NCBI GenBank assembly: GCA_016287865.1
Contig: JAEEXP010000002.1
Coordinates: forward strand, 1-64,000
Direction of reading: 5' to 3'
Source: Caryophanales bacterium
Lineage (GTDB): Bacteria > Bacillota_I > Bacilli_A > Izemoplasmatales > UBA1188
Length of the DNA stretch: 64,000 nucleotides
Part shown: positions 20,762-50,390 of the stretch, in pieces
How positions within the stretch are numbered: position 1 is the first letter of the stretch
How the letters are laid out: each line of letters starts with the position of its first letter
Position numbers and translations under genes: made by a program
Notes under the pieces: model-generated
Database searches by the model: none
What the model was told of the DNA's origin: nothing
Seen by the model: the letters and a program-made list of their open reading frames with translations, nothing else

Positions 20762-21218
20762 TTAAGTATTTTTTTCTTTACTAGAGTCTTCAATTTGAAC
20801 TACCGAGGATTCCTCGGTTGTTGAGTCATCTAATTCTTCCCCCCCAAAAAAATTAGTTCTACATTTTTGCCAAATACTATTTCTTCAACATTTGCCCATT
20901 TTCTAAATTGAGTGCCGCGATTCGAATAGACCCTATATCCTATAGCAATAATCATATCGAGATTATAGCATTTTACATTGAATGTTTTTTTCATCAGAAG
21001 CAGTAGTTCGGAAATTCCGAACAACTGAATCGTCTAACTCATTTTCTGCAAAAATATGGTTAATATGTTCACTTATATTTACTTTAGATGATTCAAATAA
21101 AGAACATATTTGCTTTAGGCTTAACCATACAGTGTCTTACTCAGGTTCTATCCTCACATCTAGACAAACTTCCCATATTAAATTTGATTAAATCGTATTT
21201 CTTTTCTTCATTTTGCAT
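20762..21218 (-). pseudogene. Broken RhuM-family gene (third copy)
   Basis: Reading backward from the ATG at 21218, the translation begins MQNEEKKYDLIKF, like the intact neighbour, then loses frame. Fragments in other frames include EP-stop-DTVWLSLKQICSLF and CYNLDMIIAIGYRVYSNRGTQFRKWAN. That last fragment joins directly to VEEIVFGKNVELIF, showing an internal deletion of about 60 codons relative to the intact copy. A run of T7G7 near 20840 marks another frame change, and a coding-like tail ends at 20762. Its start overlaps the last codons of the intact gene by 11 bases, so the two are a tandem pair. Confidence 0.85.
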
Positions 21219-22071
21219 GTTTATGTACTCTTTTTAATATTTCGTTTTTATTAAAGCTTTCGACTTTTATAATACTAAATCTTTTCTTGCCTATACTATT
21301 TATAGAAGTTCCAAGTATGTAAACTAAATCATCCACAATAATATATCTATCGTGAAAAATGTTAGTGTGTATTATTGTAATATTGCTTGGAACTTCTTTA
21401 TTATTTAAATAAGAAGAAGGAGAAGTAATGATAGTCGTCTTTACTTCTACGTCTTTAAGCATAGTCAACAAAAAGTCATCTGCATAATTATCGATAATTA
21501 TTAATTCTTGTTTGGCTAAGAAGAATAACTTTCTTATAAGTGTATAAGGTTCAAAAATTTCTCCCTCAAATATGATTTCTGCGTTTTTACCAAATATAAT
21601 TTCTTCTGCGTTGTTCATTCTTGATTCTAAAGCATTATATTTATTCTCTAAACTAATTAGATTAGTTGAACAAGATAAGCATCTTTCTTCGTTGATAACG
21701 TGACCTTTAAGCAAGAACTCTTTTAATATGGAGTTTGCCCATTGCCTGAATTTAACTGCAATTTTTGAGTTTATTCTATATCCAACTGATATAATCATAT
21801 CGAGATTAAAATATTTAACATTACGTTTGATAACACGATTTCCTTCAACTTGAACTTTTTCCAAAACGGAAATAGTTGAAGTATTTAGTTCACCATCATT
21901 AAGTATATTTGAAATATGCTTACTAATAGCAGGCACATTAACACCAAACAATTGTGCAATTTCATCTTGTGTTAACCATACAGTGTCATCATTTGGTTCG
22001 ACTCTTACATCTAGGCTAAACTCCCCATCTTCAAATTTGATTAAATCGTATTTCCTTTCCTCTTTTTGCAT
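21208..22071 (-). CDS. RhuM-family protein with PLD-like C-terminal domain
   Basis: A 287-residue protein. The ATG at 22071 follows AAAAAAGGAGGAAATAAAT; a longer reading would begin at a TTG inside the ribosome site. Residues 1-125 are the RhuM core (TVWLTQDEIAQLFGV, NLDMIISVGYRINSKIAVKFRQWAN). Residues about 165-287 resemble a phospholipase-D-like fold. IIDNYADDFLLTML is followed by HDRYIIVDDLVYILGTSINSIGKKRFS, which retains an HxxYxxxDD segment in place of a full HKD motif. The function of RhuM proteins is unknown, though they occur in virulence and defence islands. Expression is probably governed by the leader peptide and terminator directly upstream. Confidence 0.85.
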   Translation of the reverse strand: MQKEERKYDLIKFEDGEFSLDVRVEPNDDTVWLTQDEIAQLFGVNVPAISKHISNILNDGELNTSTISVLEKVQVEGNRVIKRNVKYFNLDMIISVGYRINSKIAVKFRQWANSILKEFLLKGHVINEERCLSCSTNLISLENKYNALESRMNNAEEIIFGKNAEIIFEGEIFEPYTLIRKLFFLAKQELIIIDNYADDFLLTMLKDVEVKTTIITSPSSYLNNKEVPSNITIIHTNIFHDRYIIVDDLVYILGTSINSIGKKRFSIIKVESFNKNEILKRVHKHAK

Positions 22072-22088
22072 ATTTATTTCCTCCTTTT

Positions 22089-22178
22089 TTAGCAAAATAA
22101 AAGCCCTATCGAGTATTTCTCAATAGGGCTTGAGTTAATTAGATTTAGTTGTAGCAATTTAATCTTTTTCTTTTTCAT
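22089..22178 (-). CDS. Putative 29-residue leader peptide of the RhuM gene
   Basis: ATG at 22178 has GTGGTGG four bases upstream and a TATAAT -10 just before that. The frame runs through the terminator hairpin and stops at TAA (22089) just before the RhuM ribosome site. It contains KLLQLNLINSSPI, matching the leader of the RhuM gene at the left end of the window. Codons for SPIEKYSIGL lie inside the stem-loop, so a translating ribosome would prevent the terminator from folding. Confidence 0.55.
   Translation of the reverse strand: MKKKKIKLLQLNLINSSPIEKYSIGLLFC
22092..22131 (-). terminator. Translated leader terminator of the RhuM gene
   Basis: On the minus strand a perfect stem AAGCCCTAT / ATAGGGCTT is followed by TTATTTTGC. 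It stands between the promoter and the coding region of RhuM, equivalent to the hairpin at 407-436. Confidence 0.65.
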
Positions 22179-42532: not shown

Positions 42533-44020
42533 ATGATTAATTCATTGTTATTTGCAATTCAACCATTTGTTTATGTGCTTATTGGCATAGTTGTAGCTGC
42601 AATTATAATTGTGGCTGTTCTTCTTATTTTAAAATCTAAAAAAGCAAAACAAGAAGATGATGTTGTTGAACCTATCAAAGTAGAAGAATCTAAAGAAGAA
42701 GAATTTGTTCCTGTTGAAGAAGAGGCTGAAGAAGAAGATGATGAAGAAGATGAAGAAGAGGAATTAACTCTTAAAGAATCTATCGAGAAAGCGAGTCATT
42801 CTGAAACTAAAACTGAAATTCATAAACAATTCATTAGAGACTATCTAAGAAAAAGATTCAATGATGAAGTAATAGTAAATGAAAGAGAGAATTATACCTC
42901 AACTGGCCTCCCTCTAGCTGACACTCATTATGTAAATAAAGGTCATATTAAAAAATGCTTTGTTTATGTATATGAAACAGAAGGAACTACACTCCTTTTA
43001 ATTAATGCAGATCACCATTTATCTCATGAACTTCACCAAGAAGGAAAACTTGTAAACAAGAGTTTATTCCCTAAATCAAAAGATCAATGGTATAGCTTAC
43101 CTATTGATTCTAAATATACAAACGAAGATATTGAATATATTCTTGATTACTGTTATTTCTTACCACTTGGTGTAAGAGTTGTAAGAGATAGTGCTAAGAA
43201 AGCAAAAGGTGAAGTAACATTAAAAGAATCTCTAGCTATCGCTAAAGAATCTTCAGTAAATGATATCTTCAATAAGAAGTTCGTTGTAGACCACTTAGAA
43301 GAAAAATACGGTGAAGAAGTAATAGTTAACGAAAGAGCAAACTTCACTTCTACTGGTCTTCCTCTAGCTGATACTCACTATGTAAATAAAGGCGATGTAA
43401 AGAAATGCTTTATCTATGTATATGAAGTAGATGGAACATTACTCTTACTTGGAAATGCTGATAATAAGTTAATGAAAGAACTTAAAGATGAAGGCAAAGT
43501 AGTTAATAAGAGTTTATTCCCTAAATCAAAAGATACATGGCTCTCTATTCCAATTGATTCTAAATATACATCAAGAGACGTTAGATATATTGTAGATTAC
43601 TGCTATGGTCTTCAACTTGGTGAAAAGACAGAAAAAGAAGTAGAACATACTCATCAAGCTCATCACCTAAAAGATGTAGAAGTTAAAGAAAAAGTAACTG
43701 TAGCTGAAGCTGAAGATTTAATCGGTGATGAAGTAGTAAAAGAAGCTATCCACGAAGAATTCGTTAAATCTATAGGTGGCAAGAAAACTATCATAAACAT
43801 TGATATAATCTCAGAAAACTTTAATAGTGGTGATAAAGTAACTATTAAAGAAATGAAAGAAAAAGGATTAATTCAAAGTAAGTTTGATTCAGTTAAAGTT
43901 CTCGCAAGAGGAGTACTTGATAAGAAACTCACAATAGTAGCAGATGACTTCAGTGATGATGCAATAAAGATGATTGTTGCAACAGGCGGAGAAGTAATCG
44001 AACTTAAACAAAAGAAATAG
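42533..44020 (+). CDS. Membrane protein with duplicated domain and ribosomal L15-like C-terminus
   Basis: A 495-residue protein. Residues 8-33 are a membrane segment; an acidic Glu/Asp-rich stretch follows (about 40-80). Two homologous domains of about 130 residues come next, each with a NERxNxTSTGLPLADTHYVNKG block and a VNKSLFPKSKDxW block. The C-terminal 75 residues (from NSGDKVTIKEMKEKGLI through VKVLARGVLDKKLTIVADDFSDDAIKMI) match the C-terminal domain of ribosomal protein L15. Because the protein has one N-terminal anchor, most of it is probably cytoplasmic and could dock to ribosomes or RNA at the membrane. That is inference. AGGAGGAAAA precedes the ATG. Its 3' end is echoed at 45352. 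Confidence 0.75.
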   Translation: MINSLLFAIQPFVYVLIGIVVAAIIIVAVLLILKSKKAKQEDDVVEPIKVEESKEEEFVPVEEEAEEEDDEEDEEEELTLKESIEKASHSETKTEIHKQFIRDYLRKRFNDEVIVNERENYTSTGLPLADTHYVNKGHIKKCFVYVYETEGTTLLLINADHHLSHELHQEGKLVNKSLFPKSKDQWYSLPIDSKYTNEDIEYILDYCYFLPLGVRVVRDSAKKAKGEVTLKESLAIAKESSVNDIFNKKFVVDHLEEKYGEEVIVNERANFTSTGLPLADTHYVNKGDVKKCFIYVYEVDGTLLLLGNADNKLMKELKDEGKVVNKSLFPKSKDTWLSIPIDSKYTSRDVRYIVDYCYGLQLGEKTEKEVEHTHQAHHLKDVEVKEKVTVAEAEDLIGDEVVKEAIHEEFVKSIGGKKTIINIDIISENFNSGDKVTIKEMKEKGLIQSKFDSVKVLARGVLDKKLTIVADDFSDDAIKMIVATGGEVIELKQKK

Positions 44021-44034
44021 TTAAATAAATAATA

Positions 44035-44062
44035 AAAGGATGGATTAATTTCCATCCTTTTT
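44035..44062. repeat. 28-bp direct repeat, left copy (also a terminator)
   Basis: AAAGGATGGATTAATTTCC and the following nine bases recur without mismatch at 46000-46027. The sequence forms a terminator hairpin (AAAGGATGGA / TCCATCCTTT, then T run). The right copy includes the end of nagA. The two copies bound a 1.9 kb region of unknown genes. Confidence 0.9.
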
Positions 44063-44063
44063 C

Positions 44064-44112
44064 TTGTAAAAAGGATTTCTTCATATTATAATCAAATCGA
44101 GGAATAAACCAT
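44064..44112 (+). promoter_or_regulatory. Promoter-RBS cassette, copy 1
   Basis: TTGTAA (44064) and TATAAT (44087) are spaced by 17, followed by ATCGAGG and ATG. From AAGGATTTC (44071) to AATAAACCAT (44112) the sequence is repeated at 45427-45468 with two mismatches in 42. Confidence 0.6.
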
Positions 44113-44209
44113 GCTTGAATATAACCTTAAAATAGACTACTTATTTTCTAAAAAATATTTAAATATGAAAGTGGTTATGTTCAAGATGAAAGTTATTGTA
44201 GGAATGTAA
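44111..44209 (+). CDS. Short reading frame, 32 residues, doubtful
   Basis: An ATG with a well-placed GAGG and a good promoter opens a 32-residue lysine- and methionine-rich frame. No relatives are recognisable. It may be the stump of a lost gene rather than a product: in the second copy of this cassette (45427) the ATG has become ATA. Confidence 0.25.
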   Translation: MLEYNLKIDYLFSKKYLNMKVVMFKMKVIVGM

Positions 44210-44273
44210 AAAGTGATTGAAAATTTAGTGGAAAAGATTTCAAGAGCTTTGTTACTTTGAATGGAGATTTAAA

Positions 44274-44684
44274 ATGAATATAAAAAAACTAAATATGTAC
44301 GGCTATCATGATTCCGCTATATCATTTATTAAAATTGAGAAAGGATATGTTAATATTTTCTTTCATAAAGGCCTTTATGTATTAAATGATAATGGATCTG
44401 AAATAGAAAAAAGTGAACCGATAGTATTAAAGATTAAAGTAAATGACTGTTTGGTTGAGGAAACCTCTTTCTTAGTTAACATACTATCTTACAATAGAAA
44501 GAAAAAATATATAGATGTAAATAAATTTAATAACGAAGCACTTAAAAATTCAATTGATATTTCAAACTTATATTATTCTGATTTCAATGATGAAGTTTTA
44601 ATTGTAGCTTCAAGTCGTAAACATGATTACTATTTAATTATTGAGGAGTGCATTGATATAGATTTTGTTTTGCTTGACAATTAA
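44274..44684 (+). CDS. Hypothetical protein, island gene 1
   Basis: A 136-residue cytoplasmic-looking protein, beta-rich and charged, with no signal peptide or membrane segment. ATGGAGATTTAAA gives a reasonable ribosome site. The opening MYGYHDSAISFIKIEKGYVNIFF suggests a small beta-sandwich domain of the kind seen in many island-encoded small proteins, including immunity proteins, but I do not recognise a family. It is the first complete gene inside the segment bounded by the 28-bp repeats. Confidence 0.6.
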   Translation: MNIKKLNMYGYHDSAISFIKIEKGYVNIFFHKGLYVLNDNGSEIEKSEPIVLKIKVNDCLVEETSFLVNILSYNRKKKYIDVNKFNNEALKNSIDISNLYYSDFNDEVLIVASSRKHDYYLIIEECIDIDFVLLDN

Positions 44685-44768
44685 GCTTATAGGAAATAAT
44701 GGTTGAGCAGTCTCGGTGAAATAAAAAAACAAAAATAGTTAGAAAGAAAAAAATGATAGGTTTTTAAT

Positions 44769-45176
44769 ATGAAAATTTATTTCGTTGAATATGTATTTTT
44801 TAAAAAAATAGATAAAACCGATGGTGAAAGAGTGGAACTGCGACTTGGAGCAGGGTTTTGGGTAAACGAAAAGAAAATGGCAGTTGATTTAATAGAAATG
44901 AAGAAAAATCTGAATAAAGGTTGGAGAGTAGAAAAAAAAGCGTTTGATGTGCTTGTTAAAAGAAGACAAAAGAACTTGTATGTTTTAAACTATGAATACG
45001 ATATATCAGATGGCACTACTTTTTATTATCAATTTGAACCTCAAACAAGTTACAAAAAATGTTGGGAACAAATGAAAGAATTAGTCAATAATTCAAAATA
45101 TAAAAATGATTCCACAAAGATTTGCACTAGAGGAAGAGACGGATGGTTTGTTGAAAAATATGAAATAGTATGGTAA
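44769..45176 (+). CDS. Hypothetical protein, island gene 2
   Basis: A 135-residue basic protein with no signal peptide or membrane segment. It has Trp and aromatic clusters (GAGFWVNEKKMA, NKGWRVEKKAFDVL, GRDGWFVEKYEIVW). The ribosome site is weak (ATAGG). I do not recognise a family. It sits between two other island genes on the same strand and is followed by 340 bases without a complete gene. Confidence 0.55.
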   Translation: MKIYFVEYVFFKKIDKTDGERVELRLGAGFWVNEKKMAVDLIEMKKNLNKGWRVEKKAFDVLVKRRQKNLYVLNYEYDISDGTTFYYQFEPQTSYKKCWEQMKELVNNSKYKNDSTKICTRGRDGWFVEKYEIVW

Positions 45177-45351
45177 TTGTTTCTGAAAATTGTGCACTAT
45201 ATTTGCATTATTGTATAAAATGTTTCTGTTATATCAAACACGCTTGTTAAACATAAATAGTGAATTGATATAAAAACTTTAATATATGTAATTTATAATT
45301 CAATAATTTATGTTAAAGAATAAAATAAATTATATGTAATTGATATGTAAT

Positions 45352-45408
45352 GCAATTAAAATGGTTGTTGCTACTGGCGGTGAAGTTATTGAATTAAAAC
45401 AAAAGTAG
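45352..45408 (+). pseudogene. 3' remnant of a second L15-like gene
   Basis: The last 18 codons plus stop of a gene like 42533-44020 are present (AIKMVVATGGEVIELKQK, against AIKMIVATGGEVIELKQK in the intact gene). Most nucleotide differences are at third codon positions, so the fragment comes from a diverged coding paralogue, not from a recent copy of its neighbour. The codons upstream are gone. Confidence 0.8.
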
Positions 45409-45426
45409 TATTAAATAAAAAAGAAA

Positions 45427-45468
45427 AAGGATTTCATTATATTATAATCAAATCGAGGAATAAACCAT
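45427..45468 (+). repeat. Promoter-RBS cassette, copy 2
   Basis: This repeats 44071-44112 with two mismatches in 42 bases. It keeps TATAAT and the ATCGAGG ribosome site but has ATA in place of ATG. It precedes island gene 3. Confidence 0.85.
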
Positions 45469-45517
45469 ACCTAATATCATAATTGATGATTTGCTAAAAT
45501 ATTGAGAGGAATTTAAT

Positions 45518-45979
45518 ATGTGGTTTGAAACAAAAGAGTATAACTATGAGGTAATTTCTACCCTTCTATTTATAGGTTTTTCTCCGATTATAGTCATTCA
45601 TGTTTTTTGCCTTATCGGTATAACATTTTATACTAAAACATTTCAGTATCCATTAAAAATACTTTATGTTCTTTTGATATGGTTGGGCTTGTTTGTAGTA
45701 GGATGCATTTTATTATGTGCCTTTTCAAAAAAAATAAAAATTGTATCGAATAATGGTTGTATTTCATTTAATAGTGAAGTAATAAAGAAAAAAAATATCA
45801 AGAAAATAGAATATGTTAAGTTTAATATGTTATTGTTACCATTTTTATATTTTATTAATAAAGGAAATGGATTGATAATGGAAATATCATATATTGGAGA
45901 AAATTACGAGAACAAAGTGTTTTCGTTACGTGTTTCTAATGTTGTTTTTAATAGAATAAAACAAATAATCGATTTATAA
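45518..45979 (+). CDS. Hypothetical membrane protein, island gene 3
   Basis: A 153-residue protein with two transmembrane helices (about residues 18-40 and 47-70). A C-terminal cytoplasmic domain follows (about 78-153), beginning KKIKIVSNNGCISFN and ending in an RIKQIIDL helix, a layout reminiscent of small membrane PH-like proteins. GAGAGGAATTTAAT precedes the ATG. No family was recognised with confidence. It is the last gene before the right-hand 28-bp repeat. Confidence 0.6.
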   Translation: MWFETKEYNYEVISTLLFIGFSPIIVIHVFCLIGITFYTKTFQYPLKILYVLLIWLGLFVVGCILLCAFSKKIKIVSNNGCISFNSEVIKKKNIKKIEYVKFNMLLLPFLYFINKGNGLIMEISYIGENYENKVFSLRVSNVVFNRIKQIIDL

Positions 45980-45999
45980 AATATAAAAAGGGGAATAAG

Positions 46000-46027
46000 A
46001 AAGGATGGATTAATTTCCATCCTTTTT
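46000..46027. repeat. 28-bp direct repeat, right copy (also nagA terminator)
   Basis: Identical to 44035-44062. It forms a terminator hairpin usable from both sides; its right half encodes the last nagA codons and stop on the minus strand. Confidence 0.9.
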
Positions 46028-47158
46028 ATATACGATTTTACCTTCTTTAAATGTCTCTAGTACATGTAGTGAATTATCTAATAATACAAGGTCTGCGAGT
46101 AGGCCTTCTTTAATGGCTCCTCTATCAGTTAATCCTAATGACTTAGATTGATTAAAACTACTAATTTTAGCCAAATCCATTAAATTGATATGGCACAATT
46201 CTTCCATATTTCGGAGGCCCTTATCCATAGATAGTACTGATCCAGCTAAAGGTCCTGTTTTTAGGTATAATGCATTACCTTTATTTACTACATCCATGCC
46301 TTCCATAACGAACTCTTTTTCTTTAGTATTTTTAGGAGATAAAGAGTCTGTGATAATCATGAATCTATTTGGACCAACTATTTTATAATAAGTTTCAAGA
46401 ACGTCTTTTTCAACATGCACAAAGTCACATATTAGTTCTGAATATAGTGTATCAAAATACATTCCAGCCACAACCATTCCAGGACGCTTATGGCTATATG
46501 GACTCATCGCATTATGAACGTGAGTTAGATTAGTGAGTCCATGCTTAATAGCTTCTTCAATATCGTTGAATGTCGCATCGCTATGTCCTGCAGATACTAC
46601 TATATTATTTCTTCTTAGAAGTTTAATAGCTTCTTTAGTGTTAGTTGAAGCTTCAGGTGCGATAGTAATGTATCTTACATAACCTTCGCCAGTAGTAATA
46701 AACTCATTTAGTTCATCTAAATCAATTGGTCTAATATATTTTGGATTTTGAGCTCCAGAATATTTTTTATTAATATATGGACCTTCAAGATGAATTCCAT
46801 AAAGAGATGGATTTATTTTTGCGGCCTCTTTAATATTCTTAATTGCCTCTAATATCTTTTCTTTAGTAGAAGTTAGGGTAGTAGCGAGGAATGTGGTGAC
46901 GCCTTCAGCGTATAATGCATCACAAGCTATTTTAAAGTCTTCAACCTTAGCGTTCATATAATCCACACCATTAGTACCATGAGTATGAAGATCAATAAAG
47001 CCAGGCATTAAGATTTGATTATGACAGTTAATAATTTCACTGTCACCTTCAGTAATAACTTCTTCATAGATTTCATCGATATATTTATCAACGATTTTTA
47101 CTGAACCATGTTCGATGATTCTATAATCTAATACAATTTTTACATCACTTAAAATCAT
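46010..47158 (-). CDS. nagA: N-acetylglucosamine-6-phosphate deacetylase
   Basis: A 382-residue amidohydrolase that converts GlcNAc-6-phosphate to glucosamine-6-phosphate and acetate. GFIDLHTHGTNGVDYM carries the first metal His pair and GIHLEGPYINKKYSGAQN the catalytic-site Glu and substrate loop. SAGHSDATF and NLTHVHNAMSPYSHKRPG supply further His ligands, and MIITDSLSP the catalytic Asp. AGGAGGCTAATTCATT lies before the ATG. The start overlaps the stop of nagB by four bases (ATGA), so the two are translationally coupled. It is the last gene of the SBP-GH94-nagB-nagA operon. Confidence 0.95.
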   Translation of the reverse strand: MILSDVKIVLDYRIIEHGSVKIVDKYIDEIYEEVITEGDSEIINCHNQILMPGFIDLHTHGTNGVDYMNAKVEDFKIACDALYAEGVTTFLATTLTSTKEKILEAIKNIKEAAKINPSLYGIHLEGPYINKKYSGAQNPKYIRPIDLDELNEFITTGEGYVRYITIAPEASTNTKEAIKLLRRNNIVVSAGHSDATFNDIEEAIKHGLTNLTHVHNAMSPYSHKRPGMVVAGMYFDTLYSELICDFVHVEKDVLETYYKIVGPNRFMIITDSLSPKNTKEKEFVMEGMDVVNKGNALYLKTGPLAGSVLSMDKGLRNMEELCHINLMDLAKISSFNQSKSLGLTDRGAIKEGLLADLVLLDNSLHVLETFKEGKIVYKKDGN

Positions 47159-47868
47159 AATGAATTAGCCTCCTCATCTACGTATATAGTCACATTATTG
47201 TGTTTATTTAATATACTAGCTGGTAAATCATTACTGATTATACCTTTCTTAAGTTCACTAATTACTTTAGCTTTAGCCTTACCTGTTGCGATTAAGACAA
47301 TTTCTCTTGCATTCATTATAGATTTAAGTCCCATAGTTATTGCATATCTTGGTACGTCATCAATAGACGCAAAGAATCTTGAATTATCTTTAATAGTTGA
47401 TTCCTTTAAAGCTTCTATATGAGTTAGTGAATCAAAAGAAGCGCCAGGTTCATTGAATGCAATATGACCATCAGTACCAATACCTAATACTTGAATATCA
47501 ATTCCTCCAGCTTCTTTAATCATCTTATCGTAATATAAAGGGTCTTCATCTTTAATCAGTCCATTTGGGACATATGTATTATTTAAATCAATATCTATAT
47601 GACTAAATAGATTATGATTCATAAAATATCTATAGCTTTGGTCATTCAATTCATCAAGACCGATATATTCATCGAGGTTAAATGTTTTAACATTTTTAAA
47701 ACTTACTTCACCTTCCTTATATCTCTTAATTAATTCCTCATATAAAGGAAGAGGAGTAGAACCAGTCGCAAGACCTAGGACAGGTTTTTCTTTGGTTTTA
47801 ATTAATGAAACAATTCTATCTGCGATATCTTTTGCGATATCGTCTTTATTTAATACAACGTATTTCAT
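47155..47868 (-). CDS. nagB: Glucosamine-6-phosphate deaminase
   Basis: A 237-residue enzyme converting glucosamine-6-phosphate to fructose-6-phosphate and ammonia. LGLATGSTPLPLYEEL is the phosphate-binding loop. FNLDEYIGLDELNDQSYRYFM is the NagB signature with the catalytic Asp, and GIGTDGHIAFNEPG the active-site loop. It is the short, Gram-positive length, without the E. coli allosteric C-terminus. AGGAGGTAATAGATA precedes the ATG. It overlaps the GH94 gene by one base and nagA by four, marking a tightly coupled operon. Confidence 0.95.
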   Translation of the reverse strand: MKYVVLNKDDIAKDIADRIVSLIKTKEKPVLGLATGSTPLPLYEELIKRYKEGEVSFKNVKTFNLDEYIGLDELNDQSYRYFMNHNLFSHIDIDLNNTYVPNGLIKDEDPLYYDKMIKEAGGIDIQVLGIGTDGHIAFNEPGASFDSLTHIEALKESTIKDNSRFFASIDDVPRYAITMGLKSIMNAREIVLIATGKAKAKVISELKKGIISNDLPASILNKHNNVTIYVDEEANSL

Positions 47869-50390
47869 TATCTATTACCTCCTATGAATGTGATAACTAT
47901 AGTATTTTTATCTTTTAAATTATAATCATCAATAAATACTTTTCCATTATCAAGAGCTAAAGGTAAGCCGTTGAATGTAACTGATTCATTTTTACCTTCT
48001 TTAAGTGTTAGGTTAATTAATTTCCCTTTTACAATTACACTTAAAGATGCACTCTTAAATGGTATATGAGATAAAGGTCTAATAGTAATGCCTGATAGAT
48101 TTGGAGTAAATCCAAATACATCAAATACCATCATTTTAATTAATACATTAGCTGAACCAGTAAACCAGTCATTCATTGATTCACCATCAATACCTAAATC
48201 TTGGTTGTATCCATATGAGTTAGACATAATAGAAGGAGTGGTTGAGATGTATCTATGAGTTATTGGAAGAACCTTATATAATTCATTGAATGCATAATCA
48301 GGTTCATTCATTCTAAATAAACTCCAAATACCAAATAAAGCTCCATGAACATATGTAGCTGCGTTTTCTGCGGTACCTTTTGGAAGATTTACAATTCTTC
48401 CTACGCCTTTAGTTCCTCTTTTAAAATATGGTTCAAATGTCTTAAATCCATATTTAGATGAAAGTCTTAAATAAGCACCTAGAATATGATCTCTCATTTC
48501 AGGTTTAACATTAATCATTCCGCTTAATACAAAGAATGCATTAACGGTAAGTGAATCACGAGATTCACCGTCAGGGTCATTAAAGCTTCCAACTTTATAA
48601 CTTCTATTATCTCCCCAACCATGAAGAATTCGAAGTTGGTCTTCATTAGAATCTATAGCGTTTTTAAGTATTCCTTTTTCAATTGTTTTTCTAACTTTAT
48701 TATATTTATTAATTAGCTTTTTGTCATTATTAAACTTGCCTATTATTTGAACTACTTGATCTAAGTTTTCATATAGTTGAAGTGTAGTCATTACTGATAC
48801 ACCATTTCCAAACTCTTTCTTAGGGTCACTAGTAACGCCAAGACCATCTAGTGCGTCATTCCAGTCACCATATAAAGCTTTAACACAAGAAGTAGTTTTA
48901 TCAATATTATTTACTAAATAATCGGTAATTTTAATAAGATGCATATATACACTATCTTTAAGATCTGTATATTCAACTTTATTTCTTCCAACTATTTTAA
49001 AATAACCACAAGTCTCTTTAAGAATTGAATAATCACCAGTAAATGATAGATATCTATAAAGAGCATTAATTACCCAAACACCTTGATCAATAAAGGCACG
49101 AGTATCCATTTGAGGAATCTCTTTATCTCTTGGGATTGAATATTGTCTTGGAAGACGACCTGATGGGTCTGTGAAGTTTAATATTTCAAGTATCTTACTT
49201 CTAGCCTCGTCTGGTTTAAACATTAAACAAGCTTCAATCTGTTGAGCAACATCTCTTACTCCGAGTAAAGATACACCACTATTTTTAGCTAGTGCCGCAA
49301 ATTCAACTTGACCTTCAACGCTTCTTAAAAACTTAGTTAAAAGTTTTGCGTTAATATAGTTTTTACCATCATCAAAAGTCATTTTTAGTGATGGTTCTTT
49401 GAATGTCTTTTTAAGTGATTCAAGTTGATTATCAGCATATCCAGTTAAGTCTCTATTAATAAGTGATAATGCTTCATCTTTATTAAATCTTAAACTAATT
49501 ATGTAGTCTATTGATTCATCTTTAGAGCCTGATAGAGTAAATCCATAGATATCGCCTAAAATAGCGCTATCTGTGAATTGAGTAACTTTTCTTTCCCAAC
49601 CAAATTTACCAACTTCTAAAGTGGTTGCGTTATATATACCTAAAGTAGTAGAACCAGTGTATTCACTCTTAGATGTAGTATGTGATTCAGACTTAATTTT
49701 ATTAATGTTTAATACTCTATTTACTACTGCGAAATTATATAAAGATAAATTTCTATCAATATCCTCTACACTTTCAAATAATGCACCATCTTCAGTAAGA
49801 GATGCTTTTCTAAACCACTTAGTTTCAAAACATTCTTGTGGTGCATGCATAAGAATGAAGTTAAGATAAGTAGAAAAGTAAATATCTTTTTTAGCTCTGC
49901 CTGTATTAATTGCGATGACTGAGAAGATTGGTTCTTTCTTTTCGCTCATAAATACTCTTAATACAAATACTATTTTTTCAACAATAGTGAAATAATATGC
50001 GGCTTCTCTTTTAAATACTGTGAATCTTTCATATTCATCATGAGGACGTTTAGATACTTCAGTTAATGATATTACTTTAAATGTATTATCTTCATTTCTA
50101 ATTCCAGCGAAGAATCCGGTATAAGGCTCTTTTCCTTCACCTGTCTCAGGAATGAAATGGAAAGAAGATTCATTAATGGAGAAATAACCATTTGCGTTTG
50201 CCCAAATGGTTAGTCCATCTTTTGAATATGGATATCTTGTATTTCCAAATTCTCTTGATTCTTGAAGAATGATATTATCATCAAGAATAAAACAATTTGA
50301 AGCTACTTTAGATTCTTCAATTTTGTCTTTGTTACTTCTAAATTCTTGTACGAGTTTAAGAAGATTTAATGCTTCATCTTTAAAACTCAT
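47868..50390 (-). CDS. GH94 glycoside phosphorylase (cellobiose/chitobiose phosphorylase family)
   Basis: An 840-residue protein with the GH94 layout: an N-terminal beta-sandwich with NTRYPYSKDGLTIWANANGYFS, a helical linker, then an (alpha/alpha)6 barrel. YGDWNDALDGLG carries the catalytic Asp, GVRDVAQQIEA and TRAFIDQGVWVINALYRYL line the subsites, and GTAENAATYVHGALFGIW is near the phosphate site. GH94 enzymes split beta-linked disaccharides with phosphate, giving a sugar-1-phosphate and a free sugar. Direct coupling to nagB and nagA points to a GlcNAc-containing substrate such as N,N'-diacetylchitobiose (inference). Cellobiose- or laminaribiose-type specificity cannot be excluded. No signal peptide is present, so it is cytoplasmic. 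Confidence 0.9.
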   Translation of the reverse strand: MSFKDEALNLLKLVQEFRSNKDKIEESKVASNCFILDDNIILQESREFGNTRYPYSKDGLTIWANANGYFSINESSFHFIPETGEGKEPYTGFFAGIRNEDNTFKVISLTEVSKRPHDEYERFTVFKREAAYYFTIVEKIVFVLRVFMSEKKEPIFSVIAINTGRAKKDIYFSTYLNFILMHAPQECFETKWFRKASLTEDGALFESVEDIDRNLSLYNFAVVNRVLNINKIKSESHTTSKSEYTGSTTLGIYNATTLEVGKFGWERKVTQFTDSAILGDIYGFTLSGSKDESIDYIISLRFNKDEALSLINRDLTGYADNQLESLKKTFKEPSLKMTFDDGKNYINAKLLTKFLRSVEGQVEFAALAKNSGVSLLGVRDVAQQIEACLMFKPDEARSKILEILNFTDPSGRLPRQYSIPRDKEIPQMDTRAFIDQGVWVINALYRYLSFTGDYSILKETCGYFKIVGRNKVEYTDLKDSVYMHLIKITDYLVNNIDKTTSCVKALYGDWNDALDGLGVTSDPKKEFGNGVSVMTTLQLYENLDQVVQIIGKFNNDKKLINKYNKVRKTIEKGILKNAIDSNEDQLRILHGWGDNRSYKVGSFNDPDGESRDSLTVNAFFVLSGMINVKPEMRDHILGAYLRLSSKYGFKTFEPYFKRGTKGVGRIVNLPKGTAENAATYVHGALFGIWSLFRMNEPDYAFNELYKVLPITHRYISTTPSIMSNSYGYNQDLGIDGESMNDWFTGSANVLIKMMVFDVFGFTPNLSGITIRPLSHIPFKSASLSVIVKGKLINLTLKEGKNESVTFNGLPLALDNGKVFIDDYNLKDKNTIVITFIGGNR

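Follow-up and report, generated by a model that had tools for sequence, protein, structure and literature searches.

Between an L15-like gene and nagA in the window, as we call the whole 64,000-nucleotide stretch of DNA analyzed here, three small plus-strand genes (ORF1 to ORF3, encoding 136, 135, and 153 amino acids) lie between perfect 28-bp direct repeats. The locus raises the question of what these genes do and how they came to stand there. The most likely answer from our analysis is that the island keeps a few shields against the weapons of neighboring cells and is not a novel type of mobile element.

Terminators flanking the island

The 28-mer AAAGGATGGATTAATTTCCATCCTTTTT occurs in two identical copies whose starts are 1,965 bp apart (Table 1), which agrees with an earlier note on this DNA that had described the three genes as bracketed by an exact direct repeat. 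By chance, about 1.4e-6 pairs of a 28-nucleotide match would be expected within 64 kb. The same note had called the repeat a hairpin, and RNA folding gives both copies a stem of 11 to 12 bp followed by a T run, at about -15 kcal/mol on either strand. Its prospect of further copies elsewhere came to nothing, as a search of the 1.33-Mb draft genome tolerating up to 3 mismatches returned only these two. We likewise found no integrase or transposase among the listed open reading frames or the Pfam-scanned neighbors of the island, as had been claimed. The GC content of the island is 24.7%, compared with 30.8% for the window. Queries of a plasmid collection with ORF1 and ORF2 and of a phage collection with the island DNA gave no matches. 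A dif/XerCD-like site, considered because of the repeat length of 28 bp, was rejected; apart from having only two copies, the repeat is simply palindromic, carries a T tail, and lacks the dif arm sequence.

Table 1. Features of the island and its flanks, in window coordinates
Feature	Position	Strand	Basis
L15-like gene upstream of island	42533..44020	+	Pfam Ribosomal_L27A, E 2.2e-13, residues 421-489; paralogs
Hairpin terminator copy 1	44035..44062	+	Exact 28-mer, RNA fold
Promoter-like site TTGTAA-17-TATAAT	44064..44092	+	10/12 consensus matches, just after terminator 1
Leader A (-10 region, RBS, start-codon context)	44068..44112	+	96% copy at 45424-45468
Decayed, frameshifted 5' fragment of nucleotidyltransferase-family gene	44111..44208	+	DNA relative on contig C45, protein relative in G006
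ORF1, 136 aa, putative orphan Rhs-immunity family	44274..44684	+	Homologs within Rhs arrays; AlphaFold pLDDT 86
ORF2, 135 aa, putative orphan Rhs-immunity family	44769..45176	+	37% homolog after Rhs tip in congener G005
Truncated L15-like 3' end, diverged allele	45350..45408	+	Codon comparison; shuffles
Leader B	45424..45468	+	96% identity with leader A; 0/200 shuffles
ORF3, 153 aa, membrane protein by prediction, candidate immunity gene	45518..45979	+	Weak similarity to G005 protein
Hairpin terminator copy 2	46000..46027	+	Exact 28-mer; includes the end of nagA (5 codons and stop)
nagA-like amidohydrolase gene, right flank	46010..47158	-	Pfam Amidohydro_1, E 1.7e-24

Island genes and their relatives

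None of the three ORFs has a cutoff-passing or convincing family in Pfam, NCBIfam, PADLOC, or PHROGs; the named Imm families of Pfam and NCBIfam likewise gave no match. The genes, described earlier as unrecognized, are not wholly so, since ORF1 and ORF2 have relatives beside Rhs toxin cassettes. Judged from these relatives, the two represent distinct families with members encoded immediately downstream of an Rhs core and toxin tip.

The family search covered 395 genomes of the class and was supplemented by a scan of genome contigs. For ORF1 it returned four other loci (G421; G169, with two tandem copies; G152; and L133, from a Clostridia metagenome-assembled genome), each of which is an Rhs array that combines core domains and toxin tips with additional small genes. 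At two loci the ORF1 relative lies directly 3' of an Rhs ORF, with gaps of 12 nt (L131) and 3 nt (L133). The Rhs proteins that precede these two relatives end in the same type of tip, DUF4160-like in one of them by a match below the cutoff (E 6e-4), and a DUF4160-like tip is the likely toxin partner of ORF1. A sequence search of the PDB with the ORF1 family gave no significant match. When the ORF1 model was used in Foldseek, the best two PDB matches were chains of 8owu, a polymorphic toxin-immunity complex (E 0.005, probability 0.99, TM of about 0.4); this likeness, which could be to the toxin or to the immunity partner alike, is suggestive only, but it points in the direction of an immunity function. 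In L132 (5285-6247), an Rhs core is apparently fused in frame with the C-terminal half of an immunity protein of the ORF1 family, possibly an illegitimate recombination junction.

The 37% homolog of ORF2 in congener G005 begins 1 nt 3' of an Rhs core (TIGR03696, E 7.8e-16) and toxin tip, behind rplL. The closest relative of ORF2 is in G246, with no Rhs gene within the 12 kb read around it. The AlphaFold model of ORF2 (pLDDT 50) was too poor for use. ORF3 resembles a membrane protein encoded downstream of Rhs in G005, weakly (E 0.009 in a set of 511 sequences, with 9 to 13 of 500 shuffles scoring as high), and it has no significant relationship to any immunity protein. On this similarity, ORF3 may be a third immunity gene and is treated here as a candidate.

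Rhs genes in the genome and among congeners

We searched the draft genome (G000) for the Rhs core with the G005 core as query and with TIGR03696, and neither search gave a hit; the same searches found seven to nine core matches in congener G005. A six-frame scan of the island revealed no Rhs core or remnant, and none is detectable behind rpsO, where a second island lies. The assembly, in 90 contigs, has 96% completeness and 6.7% estimated contamination. An Rhs gene could therefore be missing from it, and the absence of Rhs from the genome is likely but not certain. In G005, one locus (L084, G005:C20, 211-11998) encodes an intact 1,850-amino-acid Rhs protein, after which come additional Rhs core cassettes and, interposed, an IS-like transposase pair.

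The island genes are absent from six congeners, apart from the ORF2 homolog, which lies at a different locus in one of them. The earlier note had expected, under vertical inheritance, the same three genes in the same place in all relatives; this is not the pattern seen, and the distribution supports the island being an acquired, lineage-specific segment.

Leader A runs straight into a frameshifted 5' gene fragment. The leader and fragment together have an 81% identical DNA relative on contig C45 of the same genome, directly behind rpsO. The protein encoded by the fragment matches C45 and G006, with an NTP_transf_2 domain behind the G006 fragment (Pfam E 2.8e-6), and its intact relatives are nucleotidyltransferases of about 280 amino acids that begin with YNPKIDY. 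On these matches we ruled out that the fragment is an Rhs N terminus. On C45, leader and fragment are followed by a gene for a 199-amino-acid protein, and the 28-mer is missing there; in G168, an Rhs ORF and a relative of this gene overlap at the 3' end of the former. The C45 locus thus appears, by homology, to be a second island with a related leader and an Rhs-linked immunity-family gene. Rhs cassettes or orphan immunity genes were repeatedly seen close to translation genes or immediately behind them, namely rpsO, rplL, and EF-G-like genes, at L030 (C45, 1883-2731), L068 (G005:C5), L088 (G005:C11), L107 (G421:C42), and L122 (G297:C25).

These data bear on the possibility that the island is what is left of a full resident Rhs locus, which lost its toxin gene and kept its immunity genes. 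G005, with its Rhs core copies and with cassettes lodged also behind rplL and other housekeeping genes, shows that such loci exist in a congener. We nevertheless consider this origin unlikely, as no remnant of an Rhs core is detectable in the island or behind rpsO and the fragment in front of ORF1 comes from a nucleotidyltransferase gene.

Two stacked units within the island

Besides the 28-mer there is a second repeat, which the earlier note had missed. The 3' part of the L15-like gene (43959-44041) recurs at 77% identity inside the island (45350-45432), and the two leaders share a 30-bp exact match, longer than the 28-mer. As L15 tail and leader recur inside it, the island consists of two stacked units of L15 tail, leader, and cargo. 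The first is ordered L15 tail, terminator, leader, fragment, ORF1, and ORF2; the second is ordered L15 tail, leader, and ORF3 and is closed by the second terminator, with a degraded leader sitting between ORF2 and ORF3. No terminator is found at the inner junction, where a stretch of about 35 bp bounded by two AAAAGGAT repeats has been lost, as expected for slippage.

The alignment score of the inner L15 tail was reached by 0 of 200 shuffles. Over 18 codons the inner and outer tails differ at 10 nucleotides, and of the nine changed codons eight are synonymous and the ninth replaces Ile with Val; random substitution was never as conservative in 20,000 simulations. As the changes are almost all silent, the inner tail was still coding while it diverged, and its truncation came later. 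It derives from a diverged, coding allele. The leader matches better (96%) than the L15 tail adjoining it (77%), which shows a mosaic history and not one simple duplication. An extension of the L15-tail homology upstream of 45345 was not accepted (1 of 200 shuffles), nor was a nucleotidyltransferase stub after leader B (26 of 200 shuffles).

The unit structure also bears on the cassette-like uptake at a hairpin that the earlier note had raised. Here an enzyme supplied in trans would have integrated a circular or linear cassette carrying one hairpin at the terminator, with duplication of the 28 bp. The exact flanking duplication with cargo between the copies is what this would leave, and joining both hairpins would restore a tidy empty site of L15-like gene, terminator, and nagA. 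However, the genome has just two copies of the hairpin and no recombinase is encoded nearby, the repeated junction within the island consists of L15 tail and leader with no hairpin, and the C45 island has the leader in common but not the 28-mer, and we therefore judge this route quite improbable. An in-place tandem duplication of L15 tail, terminator, and leader, followed by decay and leaving three ordinary hypothetical genes, would yield the two collinear copies of tail and leader but is highly improbable, because the conservative changes show that the inner tail was not a pseudogene fresh from duplication, the two units carry unrelated cargos, and the ORF1 and ORF2 families are Rhs-linked.

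A probable orphan polyimmunity locus

We interpret the island, with a probability of roughly 0.7, as an orphan Rhs-immunity (heterogeneous polyimmunity) locus that is insulated by terminators, has its own promoter, and was built by homology-assisted recombination. ORF1 and ORF2, and perhaps ORF3, would then protect the cell against Rhs toxins delivered by neighbors; since searches of the genome detect no Rhs toxin gene, it is probably the toxins of others that are countered. The predicted immunity proteins would bind and neutralize the delivered toxin tip, the usual mode of action of such proteins. In Serratia, experiments showed that an orphan immunity protein protects by binding the delivered tip (PMC10539506).

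For expression, terminator 1 would end the transcript of the L15-like gene and the promoter-like site would start that of the island at once, while terminator 2 would close the island transcript and meet nagA head-on. The promoter-like site has the joint-best score in the region, but promoter-like matches in total are no more numerous than in shuffles, so that its placement is what counts.

The second unit most likely stems from a diverged allele of this locus and recombined in through the shared homology of L15 tail, leader, and terminator; the diverged L15 tail fits such an incoming allele, and recombination around the terminator and L15 tail is plausible. Similar routes were proposed for Vibrio immunity arrays, thought to grow by homology-facilitated recombination (PMC5361080), and for T7SS immunity genes in Firmicutes, by homologous recombination between tandem paralogues (PMC9484751). 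A bolder extension, to which we give little credence, is that a terminator-promoter module, made up of terminator hairpin, promoter, and RBS leader, behind strongly expressed genes is a recurrent landing site that stacks immunity genes with no dedicated recombinase. If so, each arrival would carry its own leader and be expressed and insulated at once, and the island behind rpsO, which has the same leader, would represent another case.

Comparison with known systems

Heterogeneous polyimmunity loci consist of unrelated small immunity genes and were proposed as a backup against foreign toxins (Zhang et al. 2012, PMC3482391). As interpreted here, the island would fit this description, with its genes in one orientation and uninterrupted by toxin genes or cassettes. 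It differs from such loci in having two firm families and one candidate, in its intergenic gaps of 84 and 341 bp, wider than in a tight operon, in the duplicated terminators that bound it, and in families with no counterpart among the named Imm models of Pfam and NCBIfam. Like the orphans of Serratia Db10 Rhs1, ORF1 and ORF2 belong to immunity families and lack a cognate toxin, but the Serratia orphans follow an intact rhs-rhsI pair (PMC10539506), whereas this draft genome has no detectable Rhs gene.

In Vibrio cholerae, immunity arrays were proposed to arise by effector displacement through homology-facilitated illegitimate recombination, and the island resembles them in its stacked modules that keep homologous flanks; the repeated anchor, however, is a T6SS effector gene in V. 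cholerae (PMC5361080) and, unusually, the tail of an unrelated neighbor gene plus a promoter leader in the island. With the rAID systems of Bacteroidales (PMC12247911) the island shares co-oriented, short, putative orphan immunity genes, and their repeated intergenic sequence may have a counterpart in the 45-bp leader, which has two copies in the island and one relative on C45. Unlike rAID, it belongs to Bacilli, has only two units, and has no tyrosine recombinase among the listed ORFs or Pfam-scanned neighbors. It also differs from integron-type cassettes, as there are two hairpins in the genome, none of them between the island ORFs, and no integrase is seen in the window.

On the polyimmunity interpretation, a repeat-bracketed segment becomes a readable record of toxin warfare in poorly known, uncultured Bacilli, and a genome with no detectable Rhs weapon would carry Rhs-linked immunity genes in at least two places. 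The island offers two putative immunity families unmatched in Pfam, those of ORF1 and ORF2, and a test case in which recombination would have stacked immunity genes where an unrelated gene ends.

Flanking genes

The product of the L15-like gene is membrane anchored, with two repeats and a C-terminal L15/L18e-like domain. Its paralogs lie on contigs C87 and C84 of the same genome and in congener G003, and the gene forms with L025, L026, L027, and L028 a small family of membrane-anchored proteins that end in a ribosomal L15/L18e-like domain. The glutathione-peroxidase neighborhood on the left flank lacks synteny in the four congeners examined.

On the right flank, the second 28-mer encodes the last five codons and the stop codon of nagA (46010, minus strand); the conserved amidohydrolase domain ends at residue 376 of 382, just before this tail. 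A first scan of genome contigs with nagA as query found no relatives. The gene belongs to a nagA-nagB-GH94 cluster (46010-50390) adjoining sugar ABC transporter genes, which may be an accessory sugar-use region, since nagA is missing from all four congeners searched (G001 to G004). Elsewhere in the window, a RhuM-family gene (21208-22095) lies between short repeats (21180/22033 and 20948/21791).
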